From positions 1-34,355 of the forward strand of contig NZ_JAWLPU010000006.1 of NCBI RefSeq assembly GCF_036997485.1: a DNA stretch of 34,355 nucleotides. Reading direction: 5' to 3'. Shown in pieces: positions 15,282 to 31,878 of this stretch. Made by a program: the position numbers and the translations under genes. This DNA comes from Brachyspira pilosicoli. GTDB taxonomy: Bacteria; Spirochaetota; Brachyspiria; Brachyspirales; Brachyspiraceae. Below the pieces are notes generated by a model that saw nothing but the letters and a program-made list of their open reading frames with translations, searched no databases and had not been told where the DNA came from. Position 1 is the first letter of the stretch; the number at the start of each line of letters is the position of its first letter.

Positions 15282-15309
15282 TTGATATAAAAACATAATA
15301 ATTTATAAT
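15282..15309 (+). promoter_or_regulatory. Promoter of the first lipoprotein group
   Basis: TTGATA (15282-15287), a 16-base spacer and TATAAT (15304-15309). The same elements with the same spacing recur before the two cobalamin riboswitches, preceded by the same TTTATAAAATT stretch, so all three are copies of one module. Confidence 0.75.
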
Positions 15310-15335
15310 ATTTTTATAAAAATATATTTTTAATG

Positions 15336-15467
15336 AATAAATGAATGAGGATAAAAAAACTCTTTCGTTATAAAACAATATTAAAGGTTAATTCATATAA
15401 AAAATTAACGCAATCAGATAGTATTTCATACAGATGAGTGCACTATCTAAAAATTGCACTCTTTTAT
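15336..15467 (+). promoter_or_regulatory. Degenerate cobalamin-riboswitch-like leader with terminator
   Basis: It aligns along its length with the two intact cobalamin riboswitches downstream: GAATGA at the 5' side, a GTTAATT/AATTAAC helix in the middle, and GAGTGCACTATC followed by TGCACTCTTTTATT (stem 15436-15442 with 15455-15461). The key conserved parts have changed. GGTGA is altered, the box GCTGGCACGCAACCGTAA reads GTTATAAAACAATATTAA, and GTCGGATACC reads ATCAGATAGT. It is therefore either a decayed riboswitch that leaves only the terminator or a variant with altered ligand use. Confidence 0.6.
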
Positions 15468-15511
15468 TAAACAGCTTTTAAAAATTAAAATAAACAAAAG
15501 GAGCATTATTT

Positions 15512-16051
15512 ATGCAAAAAAGAATTAAAATTTTATTAACGTTATTACTAATGATATTAACCTTAGCAATATCATGTTCAAGCCCTAATGACCCAACAGA
15601 AAATCCAAATATCCCACCAGATAACGAATGGGTAAATAATCCTAATTTTACTACATTAAAACAAAAGTGGCAAGATAATGACACAAGTTTTGGAATTACT
15701 CAATATATTATTACAGATAATAAATTTGATAATTTATATGATAATACAGTAAGCTATTCTTTTGATATAAAATATATTTCTTGGGTTAGTGAAACTGCGG
15801 GTATAATATATGGACAATACACAGTTAATGATGATAATTCAGTAATTGGAAAATGGTATGCTGTTTCATTTAAAGATTTAACTGCAACAACTATAAAAAT
15901 TTGCGGAGCAAGTAAGCAAATAGGAACTGACCCTAATACGGAGTGGGGAATTTATGATTTTTCTGCTGAAAATTTAAAAGAAGCTATTTCAAAATTCACT
16001 GAAGCAAATGGTTATTTTAGTTATTACTCTGATTGTACTTCTGTAAAATAA
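15512..16051 (+). CDS. Putative B12-regulon lipoprotein, family A, copy 1
   Basis: No known family is recognised. The 179-aa product has a lipoprotein signal peptide (MQKRIKILLTLLLMILTLAISC, lipid Cys at 22), then an Asn/Pro-rich tether (SSPNDPTENPNIPPDN). The domain shows family A landmarks shared with three other genes here: a Trp near the start (KQKW), WVSETAGIIYGQYT and KWYAVSFKDLTATTI. Two Cys (in KICGAS and SDCTS) are not shared by the family. AAAGGAG lies about 8 bases before the ATG. It is the first gene after the degenerate riboswitch leader and 23 bases ahead of a family B gene. Probably anchored in an outer or inner membrane leaflet; a corrinoid-related role is inferred from its neighbours. 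Confidence 0.75.
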   Translation: MQKRIKILLTLLLMILTLAISCSSPNDPTENPNIPPDNEWVNNPNFTTLKQKWQDNDTSFGITQYIITDNKFDNLYDNTVSYSFDIKYISWVSETAGIIYGQYTVNDDNSVIGKWYAVSFKDLTATTIKICGASKQIGTDPNTEWGIYDFSAENLKEAISKFTEANGYFSYYSDCTSVK

Positions 16052-16074
16052 ATTAGACTTTTTAGAGGTTTATT

Positions 16075-16617
16075 ATGACAGTAAAAAAATCATATTTATT
16101 AATTATAATATTTTTATTAATAATATCATGTTCTAATCCTTCTACAAATCCTGATAATAATAATACATCATCAATAAAAGCTATAACTTCAGGAGTACAT
16201 ACTATACAATATGGCAGTAAAACTTCTGAAATTGATGTAACTGATAAGGCTAAACTAAAAAATTTATGGATTGGTTTAGCGGGGGGACAAACTGTTTATA
16301 AAGCAAATAATTATAATGTTATAACAGGGAAGTTTGACAATAATGCTAATTACTATGACAGCACTGACGAAGTAAATATCAGAACTAAATTTATAGAATG
16401 TGCAGTATATGAGTATAATAATAAAAAATATCTTGCGGCAATATATTGGGATAATAAAAATCCTGGTATGCCTAGTTCATTCCGTCTAATAATCTTTGAT
16501 GATAAAGGCACTGAAGATGGGTGGTATGGCGGCGGAAACGATGAAGCTGTTATACCAAATGAAAATACTCAATGGATTAAATATAGTTTTGCTTTAGGAT
16601 ATATACAAAACTATTAA
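16075..16617 (+). CDS. Putative B12-regulon lipoprotein, family B, copy 1
   Basis: Function unknown, 180 aa. The lipoprotein signal ends LLIISC (Cys 19), followed by a Ser/Asn/Pro tether. Family B landmarks shared with two other genes here are LWxxL..QTVYKA, a VITGKF..NANYYD block, R-T-KF, AAIYWDN, the RLIIFDDKG strand, WYGGGNDEAVIP and a C-terminal W-KYSFALGYI. The many aromatic residues (WYGGG, NYY, GYI) suggest a compact beta-rich ligand-binding domain. GAGG lies 7 bases before the ATG. It follows the family A gene directly, and an intrinsic terminator closes this two-gene group. Confidence 0.75.
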   Translation: MTVKKSYLLIIIFLLIISCSNPSTNPDNNNTSSIKAITSGVHTIQYGSKTSEIDVTDKAKLKNLWIGLAGGQTVYKANNYNVITGKFDNNANYYDSTDEVNIRTKFIECAVYEYNNKKYLAAIYWDNKNPGMPSSFRLIIFDDKGTEDGWYGGGNDEAVIPNENTQWIKYSFALGYIQNY

Positions 16618-16625
16618 AATACATA

Positions 16626-16653
16626 AAAGGGCGGTTAAGAACCGTCCTTTTTT
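16626..16653 (+). terminator. Terminator of the first lipoprotein pair
   Basis: AAAGGGCGGTT pairs with AACCGTCCTTT (one G-U) around AAG, followed by a T run. It ends the copy-1 A/B gene pair. Confidence 0.85.
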
Positions 16654-16853
16654 ATAGGCAACAATATTATTAAACACAAAAAACTGCAATTTTTATCTAC
16701 AAATAAAAATATTATTTATAAAAGCACCTACAGTAGTTTTTATATTATTTTTAATTTATATATATAAACAACTATTATGTTACCATTTTTTATGCAAAAA
16801 TAATAATTTTTTTAAATTATGTAATATTTTTTTATTTTATTTATAAAATTTAA

Positions 16854-16881
16854 TTGATATAAAAAATATATTATATATAAT
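16854..16881 (+). promoter_or_regulatory. Promoter of the second lipoprotein group
   Basis: TTGATA (16854-16859), 16 bases, TATAAT (16876-16881). It is nearly identical to the promoters at 15282 and 18302. Confidence 0.8.
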
Positions 16882-16893
16882 TATCACATGTAA

Positions 16894-17017
16894 AAATGGG
16901 AATGAAGGTGAGATTCCTTCGCTGGCACGCAACCGTAAAGTTTAATTTTTATAAAATTAACGAAGTCGGATACCATTCAAACAGGCGAGTGCACTATCAA
17001 CCATGCACTCCTTTATT
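16894..17017 (+). promoter_or_regulatory. Cobalamin riboswitch with intrinsic terminator (copy 2)
   Basis: Core bases of the AdoCbl riboswitch are present in order: ATGGGAA, GGTGA, ATTCC, GCTGGCACGCAACCGTAA, a TTTAATT/AATTAA arm, then GTCGGATACC. A terminator follows, with GAGTGCA (16987-16993) pairing with TGCACTC (17004-17010) before CTTTATT. Known riboswitches of this class usually shut off transport genes when cobalamin is plentiful. The terminator starts soon after the aptamer, so termination control is likely. Confidence 0.9.
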
Positions 17018-17059
17018 AAATTGCTATTAATTTTTAATTTAAATAAAGGAGCATTATTT

Positions 17060-17617
17060 ATGCAAAAACAAATCAAAATCTTATTAACTCTATTAATGTC
17101 TTTAGCCTTGGCAGTATCATGTGCTAGCCCAACTGATCCAACTGACCAAAATAATCAACAAATAGTGATAAGCCCAGGTGTTGGAAGTCGCGGATATAGA
17201 TTTGTAGCAGATGAAGCTATTTTAAATTTAGACTGGACAAATCAAAATAAAGCAGACTATTTTAAAACTAATTGGATGAACACTTTTACAAATCAAACTA
17301 TATATAAAGAAGCTGCTCTTACAACAATTACAGGATATACTGATGCTGAAGCTAATTATTATGACAAAGCTAATTATCCTGATACAGTTAGAACGAGATT
17401 TAAATTCGTTACAAATGTTACAGACAATGGAAAAGAATATATAGGTGCTGTTTATTACGATGAAGGTTCTTATTTTGGAAATTTATGGCGTTTAATTTAT
17501 ATAACTGAGAATGGAGAAGAGCAAGCATTTTGGGGAAATGGCAATAACGATCCTAATACTGTACCTACATCTTGGAGTAAATATAATTTTTTCTTTGGAT
17601 ATATAAAAATAAATTAA
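17060..17617 (+). CDS. Putative B12-regulon lipoprotein, family B, copy 2
   Basis: Function unknown, 185 aa. The signal peptide MQKQIKILLTLLMSLALAVSC places the lipid Cys at 21. The first residues match the signal peptides of the genes at 15512 and 18506 even though those are family A, which shows that the leader-plus-signal segment was copied as a unit. Family B landmarks are NQTIYKEA, TITGYTDAEANYYD, VRTRFKF, IGAVYYDEG, WRLIYITENGEEQAFWGNGN and the C-terminal W-KYNFFFGYI. A longer frame opens at 17003, but AAAGGAG 8 bases before the ATG at 17060 and the terminator overlapping the upstream region favour 17060. It is directly controlled by the riboswitch and followed by its own terminator. 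Confidence 0.8.
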   Translation: MQKQIKILLTLLMSLALAVSCASPTDPTDQNNQQIVISPGVGSRGYRFVADEAILNLDWTNQNKADYFKTNWMNTFTNQTIYKEAALTTITGYTDAEANYYDKANYPDTVRTRFKFVTNVTDNGKEYIGAVYYDEGSYFGNLWRLIYITENGEEQAFWGNGNNDPNTVPTSWSKYNFFFGYIKIN

Positions 17618-17641
17618 TCTAATTAAATACTAAATATATAT

Positions 17642-17671
17642 AAAGGAGCGGTTAATAGCCGTTCCTTTTAC
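17642..17671 (+). terminator. Terminator after family B copy 2
   Basis: AAAGGAGCGG pairs with CCGTTCCTTT (one G-U) around TTAATAG, followed by TTTTA. The family A gene at 17738 lies beyond it, so that gene needs read-through or its own promoter. Confidence 0.75.
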
Positions 17672-17737
17672 TGTTAAATTATAAAAATTATAATAAAAGT
17701 TTTATATAATAAATGTTTAGTATATAGGAAGCTTATT

Positions 17738-18262
17738 ATGAAAAAACAATTTTTATCAATATTAGCAATTCTATTATTTATTTCATGTACAAATCCAAAT
17801 AATCCAGATAATGAGAATAAGCAAATTATCATGGATACAACAAATTGGAAAGAAAAAGCAAATTATAAATTATTACAACAAGTATGGAAAACAGAAGCAG
17901 CAGCAACAATGTCAAAGGTATTCAAATATGCAGATGCTAATAATACAGCGGCTCTTAATTCATATAATACATATCCAAATGTAAATGGTATGAATTATAA
18001 TATGGTTATAGAGGCAATAGGATGGATATCTGATACTGAAGGCATTATGTACGGCAAATATAAATACATCTCTGATTATACTTTACTTAACAAATATTAT
18101 GCAATAGCATTCAAAAATTTAACTGAAAGCAGTGTAGATTTTTCTGAAGCTTCATTAGCTGATAAAAAATACACAGAAACTTTAGAAGAAGCAACTAATA
18201 CTTTTAGAATAGAAAGCAATGCATTTAAAACTTACAATAGTTATACAGTGTATATTCAATAA
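17738..18262 (+). CDS. Putative lipoprotein, family A, copy 2
   Basis: Function unknown, 174 aa. The lipobox is LLFISC (Cys 17), followed by TNPNNPDN. Family A landmarks are NYKLLQQVW, AIGWISDTEGIMYGKY, KYYAIAFKNLTESSV and EASLADKKYTE. It is much closer to the gene at 19074 than to the other copies (shared MDxTNWK, SEASLADKKYTE and EATNTF), so these two are recent duplicates. AGGA lies about 8-9 bases before the ATG. No riboswitch sits directly ahead of it. A TATAAT at 17705-17710 lacks a convincing -35, so read-through of the terminator at 17642 is possible. Confidence 0.75.
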   Translation: MKKQFLSILAILLFISCTNPNNPDNENKQIIMDTTNWKEKANYKLLQQVWKTEAAATMSKVFKYADANNTAALNSYNTYPNVNGMNYNMVIEAIGWISDTEGIMYGKYKYISDYTLLNKYYAIAFKNLTESSVDFSEASLADKKYTETLEEATNTFRIESNAFKTYNSYTVYIQ

Positions 18263-18301
18263 AATATAAAATACCATTTTTAAGTTTATTTATAAAATTG
18301 A

Positions 18302-18329
18302 TTGATATAAAAAATATATTATATATAAT
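18302..18329 (+). promoter_or_regulatory. Promoter of the third lipoprotein group and receptor
   Basis: TTGATA (18302-18307), 16 bases, TATAAT (18324-18329), in the same sequence context as the promoters at 15282 and 16854. Confidence 0.8.
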
Positions 18330-18334
18330 TATTA

Positions 18335-18461
18335 AAAATGGGAATGAAGGTGAAAATCCTTCGCTGGCACGCAACCGTAAAGCTTAATTCATATAAGAAT
18401 TAGCAAAGTCGGATACCATTAAAATTAGTCGAGTGCACTATCAATCATGCACTCCTTTATT
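18335..18461 (+). promoter_or_regulatory. Cobalamin riboswitch with intrinsic terminator (copy 3)
   Basis: Nearly the same sequence as copy 2: ATGGGAATGAAGGTGA, ATCC, GCTGGCACGCAACCGTAA, a CTTAATT/AATTAG arm and GTCGGATACC. The terminator pairs GAGTGCA (18431-18437) with TGCACTC (18448-18454) before CTTTATTATT. It controls three lipoproteins and the TonB-dependent receptor. Confidence 0.9.
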
Positions 18462-18505
18462 ATTAAATAGCTTTTTATTTTTTATTTATATAAAGGAGCA
18501 TTGTT

Positions 18506-19057
18506 ATGCAAAAGCAAATCAAAATTTTACTAACACTTTTAACTGTATTAATATTGTCAATATCCTGTGCTAATAATAATCCAAATAACCCGAATGAACA
18601 AAACAATAATAATCAAATAGTAACTCCTTCTTGGAAAGAAAATCTTAACTTCAAAACTTTAGCTAATATATGGCAGGGTACAGATGTGGCTTGGACTGGT
18701 GAAATTTATGAAATAAAAGATAATGGAGATAAAGGAGTAGAATTTTTTACATACGGCGGAGGTTATGGTATAGTTTCATATTCTATGACTGTAGAAGAAA
18801 TAGTATGGACTTCAGACACAGAAGGTATGATGTATGGACAGTATACAAAAAGTTGGGACCCGAGTTCTGTAGGAAAATATTATGCGGTTGCTTTTAAAAA
18901 TTTAACTGCTTCAACAATATCTATATCAGGAGCAGCTGATTATGTAAATAATATTTGGGTTGCAGATTCATTAGAACAGGCAAAAGAAATATTCACCACA
19001 GAAAAAGGCTCATTTTCAGAATATACAGCTTGTGTTCCATATACTGGAAATAAATAA
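18506..19057 (+). CDS. Putative B12-regulon lipoprotein, family A, copy 3
   Basis: Function unknown, 183 aa. The signal peptide MQKQIKILLTLLTVLILSISC has its lipid Cys at 21 and is followed by an Asn-rich tether (ANNNPNNPNEQNNNN). Family A landmarks are NFKTLANIWQG, VEEIVWTSDTEGMMYGQYT, GKYYAVAFKNLTASTISISGA and, near the end, FSEYTAC. It resembles copy 1 (15512) most closely in the GKxYAVxFKxLTAxTI segment. AAAGGAG lies about 7 bases before the ATG. First gene after riboswitch copy 3; the next gene starts 16 bases after its stop. Confidence 0.8.
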   Translation: MQKQIKILLTLLTVLILSISCANNNPNNPNEQNNNNQIVTPSWKENLNFKTLANIWQGTDVAWTGEIYEIKDNGDKGVEFFTYGGGYGIVSYSMTVEEIVWTSDTEGMMYGQYTKSWDPSSVGKYYAVAFKNLTASTISISGAADYVNNIWVADSLEQAKEIFTTEKGSFSEYTACVPYTGNK

Positions 19058-19073
19058 AATATAGGAATTTCTT

Positions 19074-19598
19074 ATGAGAAAAAATTTTTTATATATATTA
19101 GCAGTAGTAATGCTATTATCATCTATTTCATGCACAAACCCAAATAATCCAGATAATCAAAATAAAGATGTTGTTATGGATATGACAAATTGGAAAGATA
19201 AAACTAATTACAAATTGCTGCAAAAAATATGGCAAGGAACGTCAGGAATATTTCAATATAAAGATGCTGAAAATGTTTATCAAGGAAGTCTTATTTTATA
19301 CGGCAGTGTATATGGCGGAGATATGAAATACACTATGGCTATAGAAGCAATAGGCTGGATATCTGAAACTGAAGGCATTCTGTACGGCAGATATACATTT
19401 AATATGTTAGATTTCAGTTTAGCAGGAAAGTATTATGCAATAGCATTTAAAAATTTAACAGAAAACAGTGTAGAACTTTCTGAAGCTTCATTAGCTGATA
19501 AAAAATATACTGAGAATTTAGACGAAGCAACAAATACTTTTACAATAGGAAGCGGAGCATTTGCTTCTTATAATAATTATACAGTATACAATAAATAA
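19074..19598 (+). CDS. Putative B12-regulon lipoprotein, family A, copy 4
   Basis: Function unknown, 174 aa. The signal peptide ends LSSISC (Cys 20), then TNPNNPDN. Landmarks are NYKLLQKIWQG, AIGWISETEGILYGRYT, KYYAIAFKNLTENSVELSEASLADKKYTE and EATNTF. It is a close duplicate of the gene at 17738. It differs by a rebuilt central loop (residues 65-80), which suggests that this loop is the variable, perhaps ligand-facing, part. It lies between family A copy 3 and family B copy 3 with gaps of 12-16 bases, so all three are co-transcribed. Confidence 0.78.
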   Translation: MRKNFLYILAVVMLLSSISCTNPNNPDNQNKDVVMDMTNWKDKTNYKLLQKIWQGTSGIFQYKDAENVYQGSLILYGSVYGGDMKYTMAIEAIGWISETEGILYGRYTFNMLDFSLAGKYYAIAFKNLTENSVELSEASLADKKYTENLDEATNTFTIGSGAFASYNNYTVYNK

Positions 19599-19610
19599 AA
19601 AGGAATTAGT

Positions 19611-20192
19611 ATGAAAAATATAATCAAACCTTTAATTACTATATTAATAATATTGGCAGTATCCATTTCATGTACTGAGAAATCAGCAACAGACCCAAGA
19701 CAAGAAACAACAGAAACTATAGACAAAGAAAACGTATCAGGTGTAGAAATAGGGAATGGATATAATGGAACTGTTTATTATGGCAATCAATCTTTTACAG
19801 GAGAAATAACTCAGCAAAAAATTGAAGAACTATGGAAGAACATGGTTAAAAATAAAACCATATATGCAACTTCTACATATACTACAATAACAGGCGAATT
19901 TAAAGATGATGCGAACTATTATGAAACAAAATGGGATAATGGCGCAAGTGCCAGAACAGTTTTTAAAAGATGTATAGTATGCAAATATAGCGGAAAAAAC
20001 TATATAGCTGGAATATATTGGGATAATAAAACAGGTGTCGGCATGTTAATACGTTACAGACTTATTATAATAGATGAAGAAGGTGTTGAACAGGCTTGGT
20101 ATGGCGGAGGAAGTGATGCTAATGTAATACCAGATGAAAAAACTAGCGATTGGGTTAAATATTGGTGGCCTTTTGGTTATATAAAACTCTAA
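19611..20192 (+). CDS. Putative B12-regulon lipoprotein, family B, copy 3
   Basis: Function unknown, 193 aa. The lipobox VSISC has its Cys at 21. The tether is Thr/Glu-rich rather than Asn/Pro-rich. Landmarks are LWKNMVKNKTIYAT, TITGEFKDDANYYE, RTVFKRC, IAGIYWDNK, YRLIIIDEEGVEQAWYGGGSD, VIP and the C-terminal WVKYWWPFGYIKL. The WYGGG-[SN]D-x(3)-IP block is nearly identical to that at 16075. AAAAGGA lies about 7 bases before the ATG. The TonB-dependent receptor gene follows after 41 bases, and no terminator is visible in between. Confidence 0.78.
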   Translation: MKNIIKPLITILIILAVSISCTEKSATDPRQETTETIDKENVSGVEIGNGYNGTVYYGNQSFTGEITQQKIEELWKNMVKNKTIYATSTYTTITGEFKDDANYYETKWDNGASARTVFKRCIVCKYSGKNYIAGIYWDNKTGVGMLIRYRLIIIDEEGVEQAWYGGGSDANVIPDEKTSDWVKYWWPFGYIKL

Positions 20193-20233
20193 AAAGCAAA
20201 ATACATAAATAAAAATTTAGAAGAATTAGTAGT

Positions 20234-22180
20234 ATGAAAAAATATATCTTGACATTATTTATATTTACAAATTTTTTATATACACAAACTTACCTTATAA
20301 GAGAGCTTAAAGGCGGTATTTGGGTTACTTCTCAAGTAGAGATAACAAACAACACTCAAACAAATCAAAATAAACAAACATCTCTTCCTAAAACTCCTAT
20401 CAAATCAAACAGCCGTATCATAACTTCCGAAGAAATAGATAGAATGGGGTATAAAAATGCTCAAGAGGTACTTGCCAATCAGCCCGGCTTCGTTAATAAG
20501 GGTACTTATATGGGTAATGAGGTAGTTGACCCTGCGGGAGCTAATGGGGATAATATAAAGATATATGTTAATGGTGTACTTATGAACACTGCTAAAGGAA
20601 ATGCTGATGCTGGTGTTGATTTAAGAAGAATACCATCAAATTTAATAGAATCTATAGAAATAATAGGAAATTCTATATATATAACTACAAAAACTCCTGC
20701 TCAAGATATACTTTTGGTTTCATTAGGCTATGGTGCGTATAATACTGTAAGGCCTTCTATACTATTCTCTAGAAATATTGATGAACATCAAATTTTTACT
20801 TTTACTGCAGATTCATATTATAGCGACGGTAATTATTATTATGATTTTACTAATCTATCAGGAAATAGAGTACAAGGGAATTTTAGAGATAATAGACAGT
20901 TTATTGCCAATTCATCTGCCAATTATAAATATACATTTAATAATAAAAACTTTATAAATGTATTTGCTAATGTATCATATTCAAGCTCTGCAGCACAATA
21001 TGAAATCCCGCCTGTTAATAAAACAGACTCTTGGTTTACTTTTACTACCCTTACATCTTCAGTATCATATAATGGATTTTCTGATATTTTAGATTATAAT
21101 ATTATTTTATCATATTTATTTGATTCATTTGTAGACAGACCATATTTTCAAGACGGTAAATTTGTATCAGATTATAAATCACATGCCGTAGCTTTAACTA
21201 CTTCTCTATCAAGGATGGATGAATTTATACCTAACACTATTACAATGTATAATAAATTAACCCCAGAATACAGATATGATATATTAACAGAAGATACAAA
21301 TGCAATAGAAACCAATTTTTATTATTATCCGCAAAGACATTCAGTTTCTTTGAAATATGAAATGCAGCTTTCTTTCGGATATTGGGATAATGGAACACCT
21401 ATATTCACACTACTGCCAAGCATAAAATATGAATATCAAAATGAAATATTTACAAATCAAAAAAATAAAAATTATTTGGCATATAATGCCGGATTTAATT
21501 TAAATTTTTATAAAGGATATGCATTATATTTTGGTTATATGAGTGATTATACAGCTCCTACTTTTAATGATCTTTATTATGGAGTATTTAGTAATCCTCA
21601 ATTGCTTCCAGAAAGCTATAATCAATTGCTAACTAAATTAACAATAGAACCTGTAACCAACCTTAAAATAGAAGCTTCTTACGCATACACCATTTACACA
21701 AACAAAATAATTTGGCTCAGTAATGTGCCTGAAAATGTGGATACAGCAACTTCGCATATAGTTAGTTCAAGCATAGGTTATGACATACCTTTTGCTGAGT
21801 ACCATAAAATAAAAACAAAAGTAGGCTATTCTTATCAGCTTGCCTATATGGGTGAAGATAAACTGCCTAAAATAGGTCTACCAGAACATGTTGTAACAAC
21901 ATTATTAGGATATGATTTTATACCAAGAAACAAAATATTAAGCTCATTATCATTAAATATTTATTATACCTACTCTGCTCCAAGACCTTTATCAGATTAT
22001 AGACCTATACGGTATTCTGAAGTATTCCACGATTTTAATATATCATTTTATTCTATATGGTTTGAACATTTGATATTTTCTATGCATTTTAAAAACATAT
22101 TTAACAAAACTCCTATACTTTCAACATACTCTGTTGCTAAGCCTTTTACTTGGGAATTTGAAATAGGATATAATTTTTAA
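20234..22180 (+). CDS. TonB-dependent outer-membrane receptor, probably for corrinoids (BtuB-like role)
   Basis: A 648-aa outer-membrane transporter. A signal peptide covers about residues 1-18 and a short segment before the plug (GGIWVTSQVEI) may hold the TonB box. The plug domain spans about 50-155, with ITSEEIDRMGYKNAQEVLANQPGF, IKIYVNGVLMNTAKG and LRRIPSNLIESIEII. A barrel of many aromatic-rich strands follows and ends in the outer-membrane signal WEFEIGYNF. The plug is compressed: the usual 'GPxSxxYGxxAxGGVINI' stretch is reduced to IIGNSIYITTK. Being last in the operon under riboswitch copy 3 argues for cobalamin or another corrinoid as substrate. The fold is certain, the substrate inferred. 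The ribosome site is weak (AGAAGAA). No BtuFCD or TonB gene is in the window. Confidence 0.88.
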   Translation: MKKYILTLFIFTNFLYTQTYLIRELKGGIWVTSQVEITNNTQTNQNKQTSLPKTPIKSNSRIITSEEIDRMGYKNAQEVLANQPGFVNKGTYMGNEVVDPAGANGDNIKIYVNGVLMNTAKGNADAGVDLRRIPSNLIESIEIIGNSIYITTKTPAQDILLVSLGYGAYNTVRPSILFSRNIDEHQIFTFTADSYYSDGNYYYDFTNLSGNRVQGNFRDNRQFIANSSANYKYTFNNKNFINVFANVSYSSSAAQYEIPPVNKTDSWFTFTTLTSSVSYNGFSDILDYNIILSYLFDSFVDRPYFQDGKFVSDYKSHAVALTTSLSRMDEFIPNTITMYNKLTPEYRYDILTEDTNAIETNFYYYPQRHSVSLKYEMQLSFGYWDNGTPIFTLLPSIKYEYQNEIFTNQKNKNYLAYNAGFNLNFYKGYALYFGYMSDYTAPTFNDLYYGVFSNPQLLPESYNQLLTKLTIEPVTNLKIEASYAYTIYTNKIIWLSNVPENVDTATSHIVSSSIGYDIPFAEYHKIKTKVGYSYQLAYMGEDKLPKIGLPEHVVTTLLGYDFIPRNKILSSLSLNIYYTYSAPRPLSDYRPIRYSEVFHDFNISFYSIWFEHLIFSMHFKNIFNKTPILSTYSVAKPFTWEFEIGYNF

Positions 22181-22489: not shown

Positions 22490-23926
22490 ATGGATAATAT
22501 AATAAGTGTTGGAATAGATGTAGGTACAACAACAACAAATATCATATTCAGTAAATTAACAATTCAAAACTTATCAGGTATATCAAGAGCCCCTATAATA
22601 AAAGTTATAGATAAAACTATCATATATAGAAGTGAAGTCTTTTTTACCCCTCTATTATCATCAAGTGATATAGATGTATCATCGCTTATGAATATAATAG
22701 AAAAAGTTTATAAAGATGCTAAAATAGATAAAAAATCTGTTCAAACTGGTGCAGTTATAATTACAGGTGAAACTGCTAGGAAAAAAAATGCAGATAAAAT
22801 ATTACAAGAATTATCTTCATTTGCTGGTGATTTTGTAGTTGCCATAGCTGGAAGTGATTTAGAAAGTATAATAGCTGCTAAAGGTTCTGGTTCTTCAGCT
22901 TTATCTAAAGCCAAATTAGCTAATATTATTAATTTAGATATAGGCGGAGGTACTACTAATTTAGCATTCTTTAGCAATGGAGTCGCTCTAAATACTACTT
23001 GTTTGGATATAGGCGGTAGAATGATAGAGGTAAAAGATGGTAATATCTACAAAATGACAGATAAATCAAAAAAAATAATAGATGATTACAAATTAAATAT
23101 AAAAATAGGTGAAAAGGCTATTATAACTGAAATATTAAAATTCTGTGAAATAATGGAAAAAGCTATATGTGAAATATTATTCTTGTCACCTAAAACTTCT
23201 CTTTCTCAATATTTTATCACCAACCATGATTGGGATATAGATAAATTTGATTATTTAACTTTTTCAGGAGGAGTGGCTGATTTTATATATAATGCCCCTA
23301 CTGCAATACCAAATGACCCATTTAAATATGGAGACATAGGTCCTATACTTGGATATGCTATATATAAATCTCAATTAATACCTAAATCTTCATTTTTAAA
23401 AGTATTAGAAACTCAACAAGCTACTGTAGTGGGTGCTGGTGCTTATAGTGTAGATTTAAGCGGAAGTACTATACATTATATAAAAGAATTGTTACCATTA
23501 AAAAATATTCCTATAATAAAATTAAGCAAAAAAGAAGAAGAAGATTTATTATTAGGACATTTAGAAGGCATAAAAAATAAAATAAATTGGTATGATGATG
23601 ATGAAATTATAGCATTGTCATTTATAGGAAATACAAGACTTACTTTTGACCAATTGAATAAATTAGCCGATAATATAATAGAGTCTTTTGATTCTATTAT
23701 AAAAAATAATAAACCTATTATAATAGTAATAGAAATAGATATGGCCAAATCTTTGGGAATAACTTTAAAATCTAAATTAAAGGATAAGTACCCTATTATT
23801 TGCGTTGATAATGTTGTTGTGGAAAATGGAGATTATATAGATATAGGACTGCCTATAGGAGATGAAGGAATGGTTGTTCCTATTATGATAAAAACTTTAA
23901 TATTTAATGAAAAAAATAATTCATAG
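22490..23926 (+). CDS. eutA: Ethanolamine ammonia-lyase reactivating factor EutA
   Basis: Releases damaged cobalamin from ethanolamine ammonia-lyase so that fresh AdoCbl can bind. The 478-aa chain shows the actin-like ATPase fold of EutA: phosphate loop 1 in GIDVGTTTTNIIFSKL (residues 8-23), a second glycine-rich loop NLDIGGGTTNLAFF near 150, CLDIGGRMIEV and FSGGVADFIY. The length is close to enteric EutA (about 467). AGAGG lies about 8 bases before the ATG. It is read with eutG from its own promoter and is convergent with the main eut operon. Its target enzyme EutBC is not in the window. Confidence 0.92.
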   Translation: MDNIISVGIDVGTTTTNIIFSKLTIQNLSGISRAPIIKVIDKTIIYRSEVFFTPLLSSSDIDVSSLMNIIEKVYKDAKIDKKSVQTGAVIITGETARKKNADKILQELSSFAGDFVVAIAGSDLESIIAAKGSGSSALSKAKLANIINLDIGGGTTNLAFFSNGVALNTTCLDIGGRMIEVKDGNIYKMTDKSKKIIDDYKLNIKIGEKAIITEILKFCEIMEKAICEILFLSPKTSLSQYFITNHDWDIDKFDYLTFSGGVADFIYNAPTAIPNDPFKYGDIGPILGYAIYKSQLIPKSSFLKVLETQQATVVGAGAYSVDLSGSTIHYIKELLPLKNIPIIKLSKKEEEDLLLGHLEGIKNKINWYDDDEIIALSFIGNTRLTFDQLNKLADNIIESFDSIIKNNKPIIIVIEIDMAKSLGITLKSKLKDKYPIICVDNVVVENGDYIDIGLPIGDEGMVVPIMIKTLIFNEKNNS

Positions 23927-23936
23927 AGGTCTTATT

Positions 23937-25067
23937 ATGGAATTCATGTTAAACACTAAAATAATATCTGGAAACAACTCTTTATTAAATTTAGATTTAT
24001 CAAAATCTAAGCGTGTTTCTATATTTACAGATAATAATATGTTAAAAATAGGCTCATGTAATTCTACGATAGAATTAATGAAAAGAAATAATATTGATTA
24101 TGAAATTTTTTCTGATATAGAACCTGACCCTAGTTTTGAAATAGTTATTAAATGTTTAAATAAAATTTTAACATTTAATTCTGATACTATAATAGCTATA
24201 GGCGGAGGTTCTGTAATAGATACGGCTAAAGCTGTAATATATTTTGCTTTAGAAATTAATAAAAGAATATCAAATTCTGCAAATAAGCCTTTATTCATAG
24301 TAATACCTACAACAAGCGGAACTGGTTCTGAAGTTACTTCATATTCTATTATAACAGATAAAGAAACTCATAGGAAAGTCCCTATCGTTTCTAATGAAAT
24401 GTTGCCTGATATAGCTTTGTTGGATTCTCAATTCACTTTAACTGTGCCTCCTAGGATTACTGCAGAAACTGGTATGGATGTTATGGCGCATGCTTTTGAA
24501 TCTTATGTATCTATTAATGCCAATGCTTTTACAGTGCCTTATAGTGAATATGCTATAATTGGAGTTTTCAACAATATTGCTAAAGCTGTTAATAACGGAA
24601 GTGATGTAAATGCACGTATAGCTATGCATGAAGTTTCTTGTATAGCGGGAATTGCCTTCAATAATGCTGGTTTAGGCCTAATACATGCTATGGCACATGC
24701 CCTTGGAGGCAGATTTAGACAGCCGCATGGCAGAGCTAATGCTATACTAATGCCTCATGTTATAGAATACAACGCTAAAAAATCTAAAGAAGCTGCTAAA
24801 AAATATGCTAAAGTTGTAACATTATTAGATATAAATAATATCAGCAATGATCTTCAAGCTTGTAATGTATTGAAATCTATTATCTTGGAATTGAATAAAT
24901 CTATAGGAATTAATCAAAAAATTACAGATTATGGTGTAGATAAAAACGAATTTGAAAATGCTATATCAGAAATGGCTTCAAATGCTTTAAAAGATGTTTG
25001 TTTGTTAACTAACCCAGTTAAACCTACTCTTGAAGATGTAAAAAATATATATAGGAACCTTATATAA
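23937..25067 (+). CDS. eutG: Iron-dependent alcohol dehydrogenase EutG (group III)
   Basis: Reduces acetaldehyde to ethanol and so recycles NADH to NAD+ inside the microcompartment. NAD-binding and metal-site motifs are visible: AIGGGSVIDTAKA, PTTSGTGSEVTSY, PDIALLD, MDVMAHAFESY, LGLIHAMAHALGG and PHGRANAILMPHV. These supply the Asp and three His metal ligands. Length is 376 aa. A longer frame opens at 23907 inside eutA, but AGAGG about 8 bases ahead of the ATG at 23937 fixes the start, 10 bases after the eutA stop. A PduQ-type role is the main alternative; the Eut genes around it favour EutG. A strong terminator follows. Confidence 0.9.
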   Translation: MEFMLNTKIISGNNSLLNLDLSKSKRVSIFTDNNMLKIGSCNSTIELMKRNNIDYEIFSDIEPDPSFEIVIKCLNKILTFNSDTIIAIGGGSVIDTAKAVIYFALEINKRISNSANKPLFIVIPTTSGTGSEVTSYSIITDKETHRKVPIVSNEMLPDIALLDSQFTLTVPPRITAETGMDVMAHAFESYVSINANAFTVPYSEYAIIGVFNNIAKAVNNGSDVNARIAMHEVSCIAGIAFNNAGLGLIHAMAHALGGRFRQPHGRANAILMPHVIEYNAKKSKEAAKKYAKVVTLLDINNISNDLQACNVLKSIILELNKSIGINQKITDYGVDKNEFENAISEMASNALKDVCLLTNPVKPTLEDVKNIYRNLI

Positions 25068-25182
25068 TAACCTATTACAAAAAGAGTTTTTATTATAATA
25101 AATCTTATATATAATAGATTAAAAATTACATATTAATTTACTTTGATAAATAGTTTTTTATGTAAGTAAATTTTAGTTTATT

Positions 25183-25223
25183 AAAATACTATATTTTTTA
25201 ATAAAAAATATAGTATTTTTTTT
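25183..25223 (+). terminator. Terminator of eutA-eutG
   Basis: A perfect inverted repeat (AAAATACTATATTTTTTA with its complement) is followed by eight T. The stretch 25225-25370 between this and the next terminator holds nothing I can identify. Confidence 0.8.
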
Positions 25224-25374
25224 GCTTAAAAATAAATAATATGAGTATTATTATATTTAATAATCATAAAAATCTTTCTAATACATTAAAGTTAGTTTTT
25301 TTAATAAAGCAAAGCGCTAAACTGTTTTATATAAAATAAGATATTTTCAAAAAAGCGTCATTTTTCAATAAAAA

Positions 25375-25411
25375 GTTCCATAGATAAGATATTTTATCTT
25401 TTCTATGGAAC
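25375..25411 (-). terminator. Terminator of the main eut operon
   Basis: GTTCCATAGA pairs with TCTATGGAAC, with an additional inner AAGAT/ATCTT stem. On the - strand it ends in TTTTTA. It lies about 27 bases after the eutQ stop. Confidence 0.85.
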
Positions 25412-25437
25412 CTTATTTTATTTATTAGCAATGTAAA

Positions 25438-25902
25438 CTATTGACTTTGCCAGTCAGCAGGATAAACTATATACAAAAATTTTGTATAAAAAGGAGTACT
25501 AAAAACTATAGAAGAACCTTTTGGAATAAAAATTACTTCTCCTTGTTTAGCTTCAACAGTACTTCCATCAGGATTTTTGATAACAAGAGTACCCTCAAGA
25601 ACCACATCCATCTCATCATAATTAAGTGTCCAAGGGAAATCGGTATTATCTAGTTCCATCAAACCGCAGCCTAACCTAGGACTCTCTTCAACAGTAAACA
25701 TATCAGTTATATAAACATTATTATTAATATCAGACTTAAGTTTATTAGCATCAGTATCAGCTACCGATCTTTTTAACACCCTTAATCCACCTGTTTGAGA
25801 AGATGCAGCTGATGCATTAGTAGTTTGCCCAGATGCTGTTCCAGTTTTCATAAAATCACTAATAACTTTTACTATAACAGATTGAATATCTTTTTCTTCC
25901 AT
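25438..25902 (-). CDS. eutQ: EutQ-like cupin protein
   Basis: EutQ is a cupin-fold protein of ethanolamine microcompartments, reported to have acetate kinase activity and to matter for shell assembly. At 154 aa this is shorter than enteric EutQ (about 230). The cupin core is intact from about residue 55: GLMELDNTDFPWTLNYDEMDVVLEGTL, then EVIFIPKGSSIVFST and YIVYPADW. The N-terminus is an amphipathic helix (IQSVIVKVISDFMKT) joined by an Ala/Ser/Thr/Gln linker (about 22-38), the layout of an encapsulation peptide. AGGAGA precedes the ATG. It is the last gene of the operon. Confidence 0.85.
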   Translation of the reverse strand: MEEKDIQSVIVKVISDFMKTGTASGQTTNASAASSQTGGLRVLKRSVADTDANKLKSDINNNVYITDMFTVEESPRLGCGLMELDNTDFPWTLNYDEMDVVLEGTLVIKNPDGSTVEAKQGEVIFIPKGSSIVFSTPFYTKFLYIVYPADWQSQ

Positions 25903-25923
25903 AAAAAGAGCTCTCCTTATAAA

Positions 25924-27225
<1,302 letters not shown>

Positions 27226-27243
27226 ATTAAAGGTACTCCATTA

Positions 27244-28377
27244 TTAAGATTCTTTTTCATCTTTTGTCAAAGCAATATTACTTATTAATATAGCAACTAT
27301 AATTGCAGTAATACCTCCAACAAGTTTAGCAACTATCATAGGGAAAATCATATTACGGTACATTCCTTCAGCGTATCCAGCAGTAAATCCTAAGTGGTCT
27401 CCAAAAGTAAAAGCAGCACTAACAGCAAAAGCTACGTTGATTATTTTACCTTTATTATTCATGTCTTTCATAATTTGGAACATAGGAATATTATTAGCTA
27501 AAGTAGCAACAAGTCCAGCTGCACCTATATCATTCATTCCTAATTTTTTACCTATAGCTTCTAATGGTTTCTTAGCAACTTTTGTAAACACATATACCAA
27601 AGGAAAAGCACCAGCTAATACTATAGCTATAGCACCTATAGTAGCAATACCATCAGATATAGGAGCCATAGTAACTTCTTTTCCATCCATAGTAAATTTA
27701 ATTATTTGAACGCCAACTAAAGACTCAACAATAGCTATAGCCAAAGCTATTGTAATAACAGCAACCAAAATTTTAGAGAAAATATTAAATGCTTTTATTA
27801 AAATATCTCTTATGAAGATTAATCCTAATACTAACAATATAGCAAATATAACTATAGGTATAAGATTCTTAATAATGAAAATTAAACTATATCCAGCAAC
27901 TATACCGCCAAAAAAAGCACCTATTGGTATAGTAATAATACCTGCCATAACACCTAAAGCTAAATATTTATGATCTGATTTGTCTATTATACCTAAAGCT
28001 ACTGGTATAGAAAATACGATAGTAGGTCCCATCATAGCACCAACTATAAATGCTGCAAACTGTCCTGCATTAGCATCTTGAGCTAATTCCAAAGCAAGAG
28101 GCGCTCCGCCCATATCATTAGCAAGAATAGTTGTAGCAAACATTGCAGGGTCTGCACCTAAAGCAGTATAAATAGGAACTATTATAGGACGAAGCAAAGC
28201 AGCTAATACAGGTGCTAAAGATATAACACCAACCATAGCTAATGCTAAAGATCCTAATGCATTAAACCCCTCTTCAAACTGAGCTCCCAAACCAAATTTG
28301 TTACCAAGTACTCTGTCTATAGCACCCAATACCATAAATACAACCATAATATAAACTATGATTTCATTAATACTCAT
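27244..28377 (-). CDS. eutH: Ethanolamine permease EutH
   Basis: Inner-membrane transporter for ethanolamine. The 377 aa are almost wholly hydrophobic, with about ten membrane segments. Family landmarks include the N-terminal MVVFMVLGAIDRVLGN, GLGAQFEEGFNALGSLALAMVG, LANDMGGAPLALELA and AATFGDH-type AAFTFGDHLGFTAG near the C-terminus. It is slightly shorter than enteric EutH (about 408). AAGGAG lies before the ATG. It lies between a BMC-H shell gene and the phosphatase lipoprotein gene, fitting an uptake step that feeds the compartment. Confidence 0.95.
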   Translation of the reverse strand: MSINEIIVYIMVVFMVLGAIDRVLGNKFGLGAQFEEGFNALGSLALAMVGVISLAPVLAALLRPIIVPIYTALGADPAMFATTILANDMGGAPLALELAQDANAGQFAAFIVGAMMGPTIVFSIPVALGIIDKSDHKYLALGVMAGIITIPIGAFFGGIVAGYSLIFIIKNLIPIVIFAILLVLGLIFIRDILIKAFNIFSKILVAVITIALAIAIVESLVGVQIIKFTMDGKEVTMAPISDGIATIGAIAIVLAGAFPLVYVFTKVAKKPLEAIGKKLGMNDIGAAGLVATLANNIPMFQIMKDMNNKGKIINVAFAVSAAFTFGDHLGFTAGYAEGMYRNMIFPMIVAKLVGGITAIIVAILISNIALTKDEKES

Positions 28378-28405
28378 ATAAACTCCTTGTTTAATTTATT
28401 TTTAT

Positions 28406-28681
28406 TTAAGGTATAATATTCCATATATCATTATGCGGATTAGCAATTATAGTGTATCTATATTTATGTTTTAATTTCTCTATAGAACACTTAGCACTAT
28501 TTATAGCTTCTTTAACATTAGAAATATCTCCTGCTATTATAATAACAACAATACCTGCTCCTATTAATTCTTTATCTATTACTTCTACATCAGCTGTTTT
28601 CAAAAGAGTATCTAAAGCATTAATTGTAGCAACATATCCTGTAGTTTCAATTATTCCTACAGATAAATTTAAGTTTTCCAT
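28406..28681 (-). CDS. Bacterial microcompartment shell protein, single BMC domain (BMC-H)
   Basis: Forms hexameric tiles of the microcompartment shell. The 91-aa product is one BMC domain: SVGIIETTGYVATINALDTLLKTADVEV, then LIGAGIVVIIIAGDISNVKEAIN and a final strand ending IIANPHNDI. The usual pore motif K-I-G-S-G-L is K-E-L-I-G-A-G-I, so the pore loop is one residue longer and more hydrophobic than in EutM/PduA. The charged segment CSIEKLKHKYRY replaces the usual Ala-rich helix. It is less conserved than the shell gene at the right edge, so it is probably a minor tile. The Shine-Dalgarno match is weak and distant. Confidence 0.88.
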   Translation of the reverse strand: MENLNLSVGIIETTGYVATINALDTLLKTADVEVIDKELIGAGIVVIIIAGDISNVKEAINSAKCSIEKLKHKYRYTIIANPHNDIWNIIP

Positions 28682-28689
28682 TAAAGCAA

Positions 28690-29004
28690 TTACTTAATCC
28701 TATTTAACACTTCTATTATTACATTTTTTATAACTTTTTCATCTGTTATATTAAACTTATTTATTAAAATTTTTGTTATACTCTTTATTATATCATCATC
28801 ATTATAAACATTATTGGAAACATTATCTTTGCTGCAACATGATGTAATATCATTTTTATAAACGATGCTAATACCGTTAGCCCTCATTACATCCATAGCA
28901 CTTGATGTAAATATTACATTAGAATCTACTTCTACAACTCCTGATTTATTTTTTATAAATTCAGAAATGTTTTGAGTACTATAAAGTATTTTACCTTTAG
29001 ACAT
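28690..29004 (-). CDS. Small microcompartment-associated protein of unknown function
   Basis: A 104-aa protein I do not recognise. Residues 30-50 (VIFTSSAMDVM...GISIVYK) match in pattern a segment of EutT (27-47) and the C-terminus of the 210-aa protein encoded at 31245. A linker with SCCSK (possible metal or redox site) follows. The C-terminal 35 residues (from DDIIKSITKIL to VIIEVLNRIK) form amphipathic helices like encapsulation peptides. AGGAG lies about 10 bases before the ATG. It lies between pduT and a shell gene in the operon, 18 bases from pduT. Likely a lumen or scaffold component; PduM or a EutQ/EutT fragment are the nearest ideas, none secure. Confidence 0.6.
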   Translation of the reverse strand: MSKGKILYSTQNISEFIKNKSGVVEVDSNVIFTSSAMDVMRANGISIVYKNDITSCCSKDNVSNNVYNDDDIIKSITKILINKFNITDEKVIKNVIIEVLNRIK

Positions 29005-29021
29005 AATATATGGCTCCTAAA

Positions 29022-29567
29022 TTATAAAATAGAATTATACAAATCATCTATAGGAGAAGGTATAACAGAAAAATTAACCACAAGTCCATTTTTTTCAGCT
29101 TTTCTAATTCCTGCCCTAACCGCTTCTTCCACCGCACTAACTTCCCCTGTAAATGTAACGTAAGACTTTCCTCCTATAGCGAAACCCAATCTAACGTTCA
29201 CAAGTGATATATCACTAGCTTTAACAGCATCATCAGCACCTTCTACTGCTGAAGCTATAGAAAAATACTCTATAACTCCTATAGCAGCTCGAGGAAAATC
29301 TCCAACTGTTCCGTTAATAGCCTGTATTACGCTATCGTGTATATTAGCTATTACAAAAGAATTAATTACAGAAGGTCCTCCCATTTCTATTCCCACATTC
29401 TTTGACTCTTCTACAGCACCTACTTCTCCACTAAATATCACAATATATTTTCCAGGACATATAGAATGTGCTCTTAATATATTAACATTAGCTGTCTTTC
29501 CTATATAATCTGTAACTAATATACCTTTAGCTATACTGTTCAATTCTAACATTCCTATAGACTTCAT
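29022..29567 (-). CDS. pduT: Tandem-BMC shell protein PduT with iron-sulfur cysteine
   Basis: A trimeric shell protein with two BMC domains (about 1-88 and 91-181), thought to pass electrons across the shell through a [4Fe-4S] cluster at its three-fold axis. The cluster ligand Cys37 is present in the PduT hallmark ICPGKY. Other family blocks are GMLELNSIAKGI, ANVNILR, INSFVIANIHDSVIQAI, AIGVIEYFSIASAVEGADDAVKAS, GFAIGGKSYVTFTGEVSAVEEAV and VIPSP. The 181 aa match the family length (about 184). Its ATG overlaps the pduS stop (ATGA), indicating translational coupling to its redox partner. Confidence 0.93.
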   Translation of the reverse strand: MKSIGMLELNSIAKGILVTDYIGKTANVNILRAHSICPGKYIVIFSGEVGAVEESKNVGIEMGGPSVINSFVIANIHDSVIQAINGTVGDFPRAAIGVIEYFSIASAVEGADDAVKASDISLVNVRLGFAIGGKSYVTFTGEVSAVEEAVRAGIRKAEKNGLVVNFSVIPSPIDDLYNSIL

Positions 29568-30934
29568 TTAATATTCTCCCCATTTATAACTATTTTTTCA
29601 CTATCAACAGTTTCTACAATACCATCTATGCTTGAATGAATATTTGCACCAACCTTATCCATTGGTACTGTAGCTATAAGCTGTCCTTTAGTAACAGAAT
29701 CACCAACATTTACAGTTGGAGATGCTGGCATTCCTATATGTTGACTTAATCCTATAGATACTTTAGGAAAATTTATTTCTATTGGATTGTCTATATCTAC
29801 ATCAACATGATAATATTTATCCAAACATAATAAACTTACCAATCTATCTGTTGAAACTCTTCTATAATTTATAGCAGGATTTACTCCACTATTTTTGAAA
29901 TTCCTATCAGGTTTTATATTAGCTTTTCTCAAAAGAGATTTAACATATATATTCATATTAGATGGGTTTATTCCCATAGGGCATGAATAAAGTTCACATA
30001 TTCCGCATTCACAACAGAAATGTGCTTCCTTTAACACATCTAAAGTATTTTCATTATTATTCTCTATATTATCCAAATCAGCAAAAGCAACAGAACGCAT
30101 AACTAAATGCGGATTTATTTTATGACCCAATAAATTTCTTGGACATAATTCAGAACAAAAAGAACATTGTATACAAGAACACTTTGCTAAAGCTTTCATT
30201 TTTGCATAGTTTATATTCTTCTTTTTTACTAAATAATGGTCTTCATCAATAACTATTAATGCACCAGTAGTTTTCTTAACAAAAAGTTCTTTCGTTTTTT
30301 CTATAGGGTAATATTTTCCCATCATAGGACCGCCAACTATTACATATTTATTACTATCTGATACACCAACTTTATATAAAATATCTCTTAAATTTGCCCC
30401 TATAGGAACATTTATAATACAAGGGTTATTAACTTCACCTAAAATAGATATATATTTTGAAGTAACAGGAATATCATTCAAACTATCATAAATATTACAT
30501 AATGTAGCAACATTAAATACTACACAACCAACTTCTAAAGGTATTCCTCCAGCTTTAATTACTCTATTAGTAATATTATATACCAAAGTTTGTTCATCGC
30601 CTAAAGGATAGAAACTATCAAAAGTTCTTATTTCTATAGGAGCATTTTCTTCTTTAATAACTTTATTTAAAGCTTCTATTTGCTTTATATATTTTTTCTT
30701 TGTTCCTATAATTATATATTTAGCAGATATTTCTTTTCCTATTATAGACAATGCTTTCACTATCTTTTCTGCATATTTCAACATTAAAAACTGATCTGTC
30801 TTTAATAGAGGCTCACACTCAGCCGCATTAGCTATTAAATATTCTACTTTTTCAGGCAATTTTATATGTGATGGGAAACCTGCTCCACCAGCTCCAACAA
30901 TACCAGCATTATATATTTTTTCTTTTAAACTCAT
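29564..30934 (-). CDS. pduS: Corrinoid reductase PduS (RnfC-like iron-sulfur flavoprotein)
   Basis: Reduces cob(III)alamin towards the state used by the adenosyltransferase, with FMN and two [4Fe-4S] clusters. The N-terminus has the glycine motif VGAGGAGFPSHIKL and ANAAECEPLL. Ferredoxin-like clusters are CSCIQCSFCSELCP and CCECGICELYSCP in the second half, followed by a biotinyl-like domain (HIGMPASPTVNVGDSV). Length is 456 aa. The frame opens at 30952, but AAGGG lies about 6 bases before the ATG at 30934, so I start there. It is coupled to pduT and lies in the same operon as eutT, so reduction and adenosylation of B12 are encoded together. Confidence 0.93.
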   Translation of the reverse strand: MSLKEKIYNAGIVGAGGAGFPSHIKLPEKVEYLIANAAECEPLLKTDQFLMLKYAEKIVKALSIIGKEISAKYIIIGTKKKYIKQIEALNKVIKEENAPIEIRTFDSFYPLGDEQTLVYNITNRVIKAGGIPLEVGCVVFNVATLCNIYDSLNDIPVTSKYISILGEVNNPCIINVPIGANLRDILYKVGVSDSNKYVIVGGPMMGKYYPIEKTKELFVKKTTGALIVIDEDHYLVKKKNINYAKMKALAKCSCIQCSFCSELCPRNLLGHKINPHLVMRSVAFADLDNIENNNENTLDVLKEAHFCCECGICELYSCPMGINPSNMNIYVKSLLRKANIKPDRNFKNSGVNPAINYRRVSTDRLVSLLCLDKYYHVDVDIDNPIEINFPKVSIGLSQHIGMPASPTVNVGDSVTKGQLIATVPMDKVGANIHSSIDGIVETVDSEKIVINGENIK

Positions 30935-30961
30935 AGATAACCCTTCATTCATTTATATTAT

Positions 30962-31231
30962 TTATTGTAAATCTACCTGATCTACAATACCTACTATAAC
31001 TGCATCTATAGGAAGCATATCTTTATCACCCTGTGCTTTTCTCGCTCCGCTGCCAGAAGTAATAATAACTACGTCTCCAATACCTGCACCTATATAATCG
31101 CAAGCTATAACAATACCCAACTCTTTTTGAGTATCCGGCTCAAAAACTCTAGTAATTAAAAGTTTATTTCCAGACAAACTTTCTTCTTTTTTAGTAGCCC
31201 ATACACTTCCTATTACTTTTGCTAATACCAT
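30962..31231 (-). CDS. eutN: Microcompartment vertex protein EutN/CcmL family (BMC-P)
   Basis: Pentameric protein that caps the vertices of the polyhedral shell. The 89-aa chain is a single EutN/CcmL barrel: MVLAKVIGSVWATKK, LLITRVF, IACDYIGAGIGDVVIITSGSGAR and a final VDAVIVGIVD-like strand (IDAVIVGIVDQVDL). Length is typical. AAAGGA precedes the ATG. It lies between pduS and the unknown 210-aa protein gene. Confidence 0.95.
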   Translation of the reverse strand: MVLAKVIGSVWATKKEESLSGNKLLITRVFEPDTQKELGIVIACDYIGAGIGDVVIITSGSGARKAQGDKDMLPIDAVIVGIVDQVDLQ

Positions 31232-31244
31232 TTAATAATTCCTT

Positions 31245-31877
31245 TTATTTATATAAAATATTTATTTTCTTTTCTTTAATATAGTCAATAACAAGAGGAG
31301 TGATAATTGCCTTATTACTAACTATAATATTAGAACAATTATTAATAACATCTGCAATATCAGATTTAGTAATAATTTTTTTATCTGTAAGATCAACAGT
31401 ACTTTCTTTATTTACAACTACATTTTTATCATAAAAATATTGCAAAAATGTATTATTATCATGAATTAACAAACCATAAGATTTCGCTATATTTTCTAAT
31501 TCTGTCAATTTAGAAAGCAATGCATTAGAAGCAGTATTATTATAATTATTAAATCTTTTTATATCTTTCAAAGCTATAACTTTTTTACCAGACAATAAAG
31601 CATTAAGAATAAAAGAAATATTATCATCTTTATACAAAAGATTAGATATGCAAGATAACATTTCTACAGATAAATCATCTACTACAATTATATTATAATT
31701 ATCTATATTTGCATTGTTTACATTTGATGCTATATCTAACTTGTATCCAATAGATTCTAATTCATCTTTAAATAAAAAAGTATCATTATTTGATAAAACA
31801 AACATAGAGTTAGCTAATTTACCATTTATCTGTTCAATAACAGTCAATACAATTTTTCTAATTAATGCATCATCCAT
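31245..31877 (-). CDS. Ethanolamine-utilisation-associated protein of unknown function
   Basis: A 210-aa protein of no proven function. It recalls a poorly described family of similar length from eut loci (I think TIGR02536, from memory). The N-terminus (DDALIRKIVLTVIEQINGK) is an amphipathic helix like an encapsulation peptide. The middle alternates beta and alpha (YNIIVVDDLS, KKVIALKDI), like a Rossmann or flavodoxin fold without a visible nucleotide motif. The C-terminus (190-210, AIITPL...INILYK) repeats the pattern found in EutT and the 104-aa protein. AGAGG lies before the ATG. It starts one base after the eutJ stop. Probably a lumen protein. Confidence 0.65.
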   Translation of the reverse strand: MDDALIRKIVLTVIEQINGKLANSMFVLSNNDTFLFKDELESIGYKLDIASNVNNANIDNYNIIVVDDLSVEMLSCISNLLYKDDNISFILNALLSGKKVIALKDIKRFNNYNNTASNALLSKLTELENIAKSYGLLIHDNNTFLQYFYDKNVVVNKESTVDLTDKKIITKSDIADVINNCSNIIVSNKAIITPLVIDYIKEKKINILYK

Positions 31878-31878
31878 A

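Follow-up and report, generated by a model that had tools for sequence, protein, structure and literature searches.

Lipoprotein-assisted uptake of vitamin B12 has so far been described mainly in Bacteroides. There, BtuG forms a lid on the TonB-dependent receptor (TBDR) BtuB, and BtuH and BtuJ are tight binders of B12 (PMC10404256, PMC8941943, PMC12751083); BtuL and BtuK2 of B. thetaiotaomicron, encoded in such operons, did not show binding of cobalamin (PMC12751083). Here we analyze a window of 34,355 bases from Brachyspira pilosicoli, which is an entire contig (NZ_JAWLPU010000006.1, C6) of a 2.7 Mb genome. Its plus strand carries seven lipoprotein open reading frames (ORFs) and a TBDR gene between 15512 and 22180. 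Judged from sequence and gene context, this cluster very probably belongs to a B12 acquisition system. The cluster shares several features with the Bacteroides systems built on BtuB-BtuG with BtuH, BtuJ and BtuK: both have riboswitch-run clusters with several differing small lipoproteins and one TBDR, a second, internal riboswitch-promoter in one cluster, and domain fusions (BtuG1 has a BtuH domain), and both belong to gut scavengers. By contrast, we found no sequence homology between the Bacteroides proteins and the Brachyspira lipoproteins, and Bacteroides has several BtuB where Brachyspira has a single TBDR per genome.

The initial annotation had described seven lipoproteins of 174-193 amino acids (aa) in two families, A (four members) and B (three members), behind three copies of a promoter-leader module, two of them clear cobalamin riboswitches, with a TBDR on the last transcript. 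This architecture was borne out. All seven ORFs are present and have lipoboxes, and the motifs named for the two families recur in alignments of the window members, with within-family identities of 34-47% for A and 35-42% for B. The lipoprotein genes, with the evidence for each, are as follows:

15512-16051, + strand: family A (alpha subfamily), 179 aa; lipobox, alignment, tree
16075-16617, + strand: family B (alpha subfamily), 180 aa; lipobox, alignment, tree
17060-17617, + strand: subfamily B2, 185 aa; lipobox, tree
17738-18262, + strand: family A (gamma subfamily), 174 aa; lipobox, alignment, tree
18506-19057, + strand: family A (lone branch near the beta subfamily), 183 aa; lipobox, tree, AlphaFold
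19074-19598, + strand: family A (gamma subfamily), 174 aa; lipobox, alignment, tree
19611-20192, + strand: family B (beta subfamily), 193 aa; lipobox, AlphaFold

For the B2 gene the open frame begins at 17003, and the ribosome-binding site fits a start at 17060. Profile-profile comparison with hhalign aligned A and B in the lipobox region only, with no similarity outside it, and a common origin of the two families was therefore rejected. The cluster had also been called expanded. Seven copies are indeed there, but a recent tandem expansion was rejected, because in the trees the window paralogues sit in separate old subfamilies common to other species: 15512 in A-alpha, 17738 and 19074 in A-gamma, 18506 on its branch near the beta group, 16075 in B-alpha, 19611 in B-beta, and 17060 in the distinct old subfamily B2. 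The ratio of nonsynonymous to synonymous substitution rates (dN/dS) was 0.13-0.49 for the lipoproteins, indicating purifying selection, versus 0.06-0.08 for the receptor, so the lipoproteins evolve faster. Our comparative set comprised 26 Brachyspira genomes (G and L labels denote compared genomes and loci; G000 is the window's own genome). A and B are neighbours in most loci, and in one species they are fused into one lipoprotein chain (L066:7172-8101).

A separate observation concerns the B2 genes beside the receptor. In four species they are frameshifted, at differing sites and with the remaining frame intact, and in a fifth species the gene has an in-frame deletion. Recent decay and phase variation are possible readings. 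The disrupted B2 genes lie at:

L066:10136-10699
L067:9592-9978
L074:8000-8380
L075:7790-8227
L080:8995-9393

The evidence for control by B12 comes from the leaders. The three copies of the promoter-leader module stand ahead of 15512, 17060 and 18506, and their 65-nucleotide promoter repeats begin at 15245, 16817 and 18265. To score the leaders we used R1, a model built from 18 leaders of the genus, leaders 2 and 3 of the window being part of this training set. The regulatory features are:

15282-15309, + strand: promoter-like site, module copy 1, TTGATA-16-TATAAT
15334-15428, + strand: decayed cobalamin riboswitch, module copy 1, R1 15.4 bits
16854-16881, + strand: promoter-like site, module copy 2, TTGATA-16-TATAAT
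16889-16980, + strand: compact cobalamin riboswitch aptamer, copy 2, RF00174 (Cobalamin) 23.6 bits, below its gathering score of 31.5; R1 105 bits
16984-17055, + strand: expression platform, copy 2, GAGTGCA/TGCACTC hairpin and anti-Shine-Dalgarno helix CTCCTTTATT/AATAAAGGAG
18302-18329, + strand: promoter-like site, module copy 3, TTGATA-16-TATAAT
18331-18423, + strand: compact cobalamin riboswitch aptamer, copy 3, RF01689 (AdoCbl-II) 31.9 bits, below its gathering score of 36.5; R1 101.6 bits
18430-18500, + strand: expression platform, copy 3, anti-Shine-Dalgarno helix

RF00174 and RF01689 both align over their full length on the window leaders, and the scores below gathering fit a divergent, AT-rich compact riboswitch variant. 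The 18 leaders share a near-invariant core, GGGAAUG..GGUG..UCC..CGCUGGC.CGCA.CCGUAAAG..AAGUCGGA, and R1 scored 80-99 bits on loci outside its training set (e.g. L103-L110). Leader 1, a decayed copy in the right place and orientation, has lost the aptamer core and kept the 3' hairpin GAGTGCA/TGCACTC. Most leaders offer a possible anti-Shine-Dalgarno helix like that of copy 2, beside or competing with this hairpin, which suggests translational off-control. Leaders 2 and 3 thus appear to be translational off-switches, a direction that we infer from the predicted pairing.

The same model also picked out orphan cobalamin riboswitches in six genomes (83-99 bits), with no ORF directly downstream. The exact 20-mer ACATAAATAAACCAAATATC lies about 200 nucleotides past the aptamer start in all six, a strong terminator-like hairpin GGCAGGAG...TTCCTGCC follows in five, and opposite-strand genes converge on the element where this was checked (L103, L105). 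Such an element is possibly a B12-controlled small RNA. The sites are:

L103:3088-3183 and 3288-3307
L104:3541
L105:7106-7200, - strand
L106:1454-1547, - strand
L109:5094
L110:3566

Across the genus, lipoproteins, receptor and riboswitch travel together. A convincing A, B or B2 occurs in 23 genomes; every one of these has both the TBDR and, at the locus, an R1 riboswitch, with an aptamer ahead of the cluster lipoproteins. Rfam cobalamin matches (E up to 0.1) were found in 24 of the 26 genomes, many of them ahead of the lipoprotein cluster. In one genome (L108) an R1 element lies upstream of metE (TIGR01371 over its cut-off), and in another (G003, locus L107) it stands ahead of a TBDR-btuF-btuC-btuD operon that has no lipoprotein genes and whose TBDR shares 75% identity with that of the window. 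The genes under this element identify B12 as the ligand system. Genome G001 (L079) joins all the parts in one riboswitch-driven operon, in the order A-B-B-like-TBDR-btuFCD. In the window's genome, btuFCD (L084) lies on another contig than the cluster; behind it come a cobalamin riboswitch that scores above the Rfam cut-off, then eutB and eutC, whose own riboswitch this is, and bacterial microcompartment (BMC) genes. We had also considered as BtuFCD the ATP-binding cassette (ABC) transporter that adjoins the cluster in many species; it was rejected as unrelated, being of the ABC_sub_bind / BPD_transp_2 type. As for the demand for B12, CbiC was found in none of the 26 genomes, so that de novo synthesis is unlikely, and a MetH reactivation (B12) domain is present in 24, all except G019 and G023 (the latter about 85% complete). 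Brachyspira is thus an apparent B12 auxotroph.

The last gene of the cluster is the receptor:

20234-22180, + strand: TonB-dependent receptor, proposed BtuB; PF07715 Plug domain

Its Plug domain is matched at 5.7e-12 and its barrel weakly by PF00593 (26.6 bits, just below the cut-off of 27). The only NCBIfam models that match it, weakly, are those of B12 receptors. It is the sole Plug-domain protein found in the window's genome. Exactly one Plug-domain TBDR occurs in 24 of the 26 genomes, located with the cluster or, for G003, with btuFCD, and none was found in G019 and G023; the genus seems to hold at most one TBDR per genome. We propose that 20234 is the Brachyspira BtuB, with corrinoid transport as its predicted function. 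The pairing of one TBDR with a FecCD-type ABC transporter, in one operon in L107 and L079, is like the BtuB-BtuFCD system of E. coli; the receptors resemble each other weakly. E. coli is not known to have surface lipoproteins of the A/B kind.

We next consider the lipoproteins themselves. AlphaFold models had a mean predicted local distance difference test (pLDDT) of 93.7 for 18506 (family A) and 92.6 for 19611 (family B). The best match of the A model was Tp0751 of Treponema pallidum (Z 10.9, root-mean-square deviation 3.1 Å over 108 residues, 10% identity), followed by the Bacteroides structures 4iab (Z 9.0), 4gzv (Z 9.0) and 4i95 (Z 8.5), with Foldseek E of about 0.005-0.01. On this modelled structure, family A is a predicted lipocalin-like barrel. 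These four structures share the fold with A (Z 8.5-10.9) at 9-14% identity, and their entry titles show no B12 link; structure comparison also finds the fold in heme-binding nitrophorins and Bacteroides lipocalin-like proteins. None of the 27 family A members matched a Pfam lipocalin family. Neisserial TbpB, which like the proposed A proteins is a surface lipoprotein with a beta-barrel domain serving a TBDR (TbpA), gave a weak Foldseek match to A (E 0.15), its ligand and sequence being unrelated. The B model had no convincing match in the PDB (Foldseek E >1); with VIA, Tp0751 came first (Z 5.2), then PhiA (4.3), then ZinT and lipocalins below 4. BtuJ, by contrast, is an augmented beta-jellyroll (DUF4465), and no Pfam match to DUF4465 appeared at E up to 1 in 27 A and 22 B members. 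BtuG, BtuH and the other Bacteroides Btu proteins were absent from the Foldseek and VIA matches of A and B, an absence that excludes no fold kinship.

All the members that we found of either family belong to Brachyspira. For family B, neither the 393 genomes searched within the phylum nor a pattern scan covering 84,980 species genomes gave a convincing member outside the genus. For family A the profile search was confined to the genus, and the evidence that it is missing elsewhere is the lack of a match in Pfam, NCBIfam and the PDB. Neither family matched a curated family (Pfam; NCBIfam, scanned with single members), and profile searches against PDB chains gave chance or lipobox matches only. 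Two candidates for distant members outside the genus were rejected: the one in G372 is part of an esterase-like lipoprotein that is not related, and the one in G065 aligns with the profile in its N-terminal, signal-peptide portion alone. A match of 15512 to PF22057 (BACOVA_00961-like, E 0.015) and other weak Pfam matches were dropped, as they were not reproduced in other members. Among the papers accessible to us, we found nothing relevant on Brachyspira B12 lipoproteins or TBDRs. The lack of resemblance to the Bacteroides families claimed at the outset stands at the sequence level, with no relative in Pfam, NCBIfam or the PDB. The further suggestion of an independent spirochaete solution survives in part: membership in a B12 system and independence of sequence are retained, and "spirochaete" narrows to Brachyspira, given the 393-genome result for family B. 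The solution itself stays inferential, because so are corrinoid binding and surface exposure.

Taken by analogy, the best reading of A and B is as counterparts of Bacteroides BtuG, BtuH and BtuJ without sequence homology. The cluster is probably the outer-membrane part of corrinoid scavenging, with surface-capture lipoproteins feeding the Brachyspira BtuB, and we lean towards direct capture of corrinoid at the surface by the A and B proteins. Under B12 scarcity, the two riboswitches would leave the Shine-Dalgarno sequence free, and the A and B lipoproteins and the receptor would be made; with B12 bound, the anti-Shine-Dalgarno helix would stop translation. The lipid-anchored A (lipocalin-like) and B proteins, most likely located on the outer surface, would capture corrinoid for delivery to BtuB (20234), which would pass it on to the BtuFCD encoded next to eutBC elsewhere in the genome. 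It is about an even prospect that two unrelated, genus-restricted families, A with its lipocalin-like fold and B with a fold not clearly recognised, arose as high-affinity surface corrinoid binders that serve the sole TBDR of the genus, with an origin apart from Bacteroides. Several findings weigh against this picture. The first transcript (15512-16075) has no intact aptamer, A and B have no homologue among the known corrinoid-binding proteins, the receptor scores 37 bits on TIGR01779 against an equivalog cut-off of 599.7, and a search with PF03544 gave no TonB in the window's genome, although ExbD was found there. Moreover, G003 has neither A nor B but does have the TBDR and the riboswitch; the lipoproteins are therefore not essential to uptake.

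Other roles for the lipoproteins have to be weighed. The A and B proteins may be B12-regulated parts of the receptor complex that bind no corrinoid, acting as lids, assembly factors or vesicle promoters. BtuL and BtuK2 of B. thetaiotaomicron, products of such operons that did not show cobalamin binding (PMC12751083), are precedents, BtuL for this very kind of role, and in the minimal loci (L081, L082, L083, L085, L086) B2 stands alone beside the TBDR. We nevertheless hold this to be unlikely: most tested lipoproteins of the Bacteroides systems do bind, lipocalin-like barrels bind small molecules in many families, and a genome with several A and B proteins that have diverged would be easier to understand if these were binders with differing corrinoid preferences. 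A periplasmic location, with the lipoproteins ferrying corrinoid from BtuB to BtuF, would agree with the linkage to btuFCD in L079, and lipoprotein sorting in Brachyspira is too poorly understood for placement from sequence. It is improbable all the same, since BtuF already does the periplasmic job, and a dN/dS above the receptor's together with multiple diverged copies suits exposed proteins better. That the B12-controlled import is of something other than corrinoid, such as heme or a metal chelate, might be read from the TIGR01779 score far under its cut-off and from btuF-like proteins that also match models of heme and siderophore binding proteins; it is very unlikely, as this is the only TBDR in a genus where CbiC is lacking and B12 is used, and the same aptamer governs metE and TBDR-btuFCD. 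Equally implausible is that family A is a host-binding lipocalin (adhesin) placed in the cluster by chance, as its best structural match, Tp0751, might suggest: identity is only 10%, the fold recurs in Bacteroides lipocalin-like proteins and nitrophorins, regulon and receptor linkage indicate nutrient uptake, and family A is present only where the B12 receptor is.

The part of the window that adjoins the cluster at 22490-34110 holds eutA and an iron alcohol dehydrogenase gene on the plus strand, and eutQ, a HAD-family lipoprotein, eutH, BMC shell genes, an RnfC-like gene and EutN on the minus strand.

If Brachyspira did evolve lipoproteins of its own for B12 uptake, surface capture of B12 would be a way of meeting gut competition that has recurred, and two new folds that bind corrinoids would be open to study. 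The analysis also suggests what genus-specific lipoproteins probably do in a genus that includes animal pathogens, and the genus's single TonB-dependent receptor gains a directly testable substrate.

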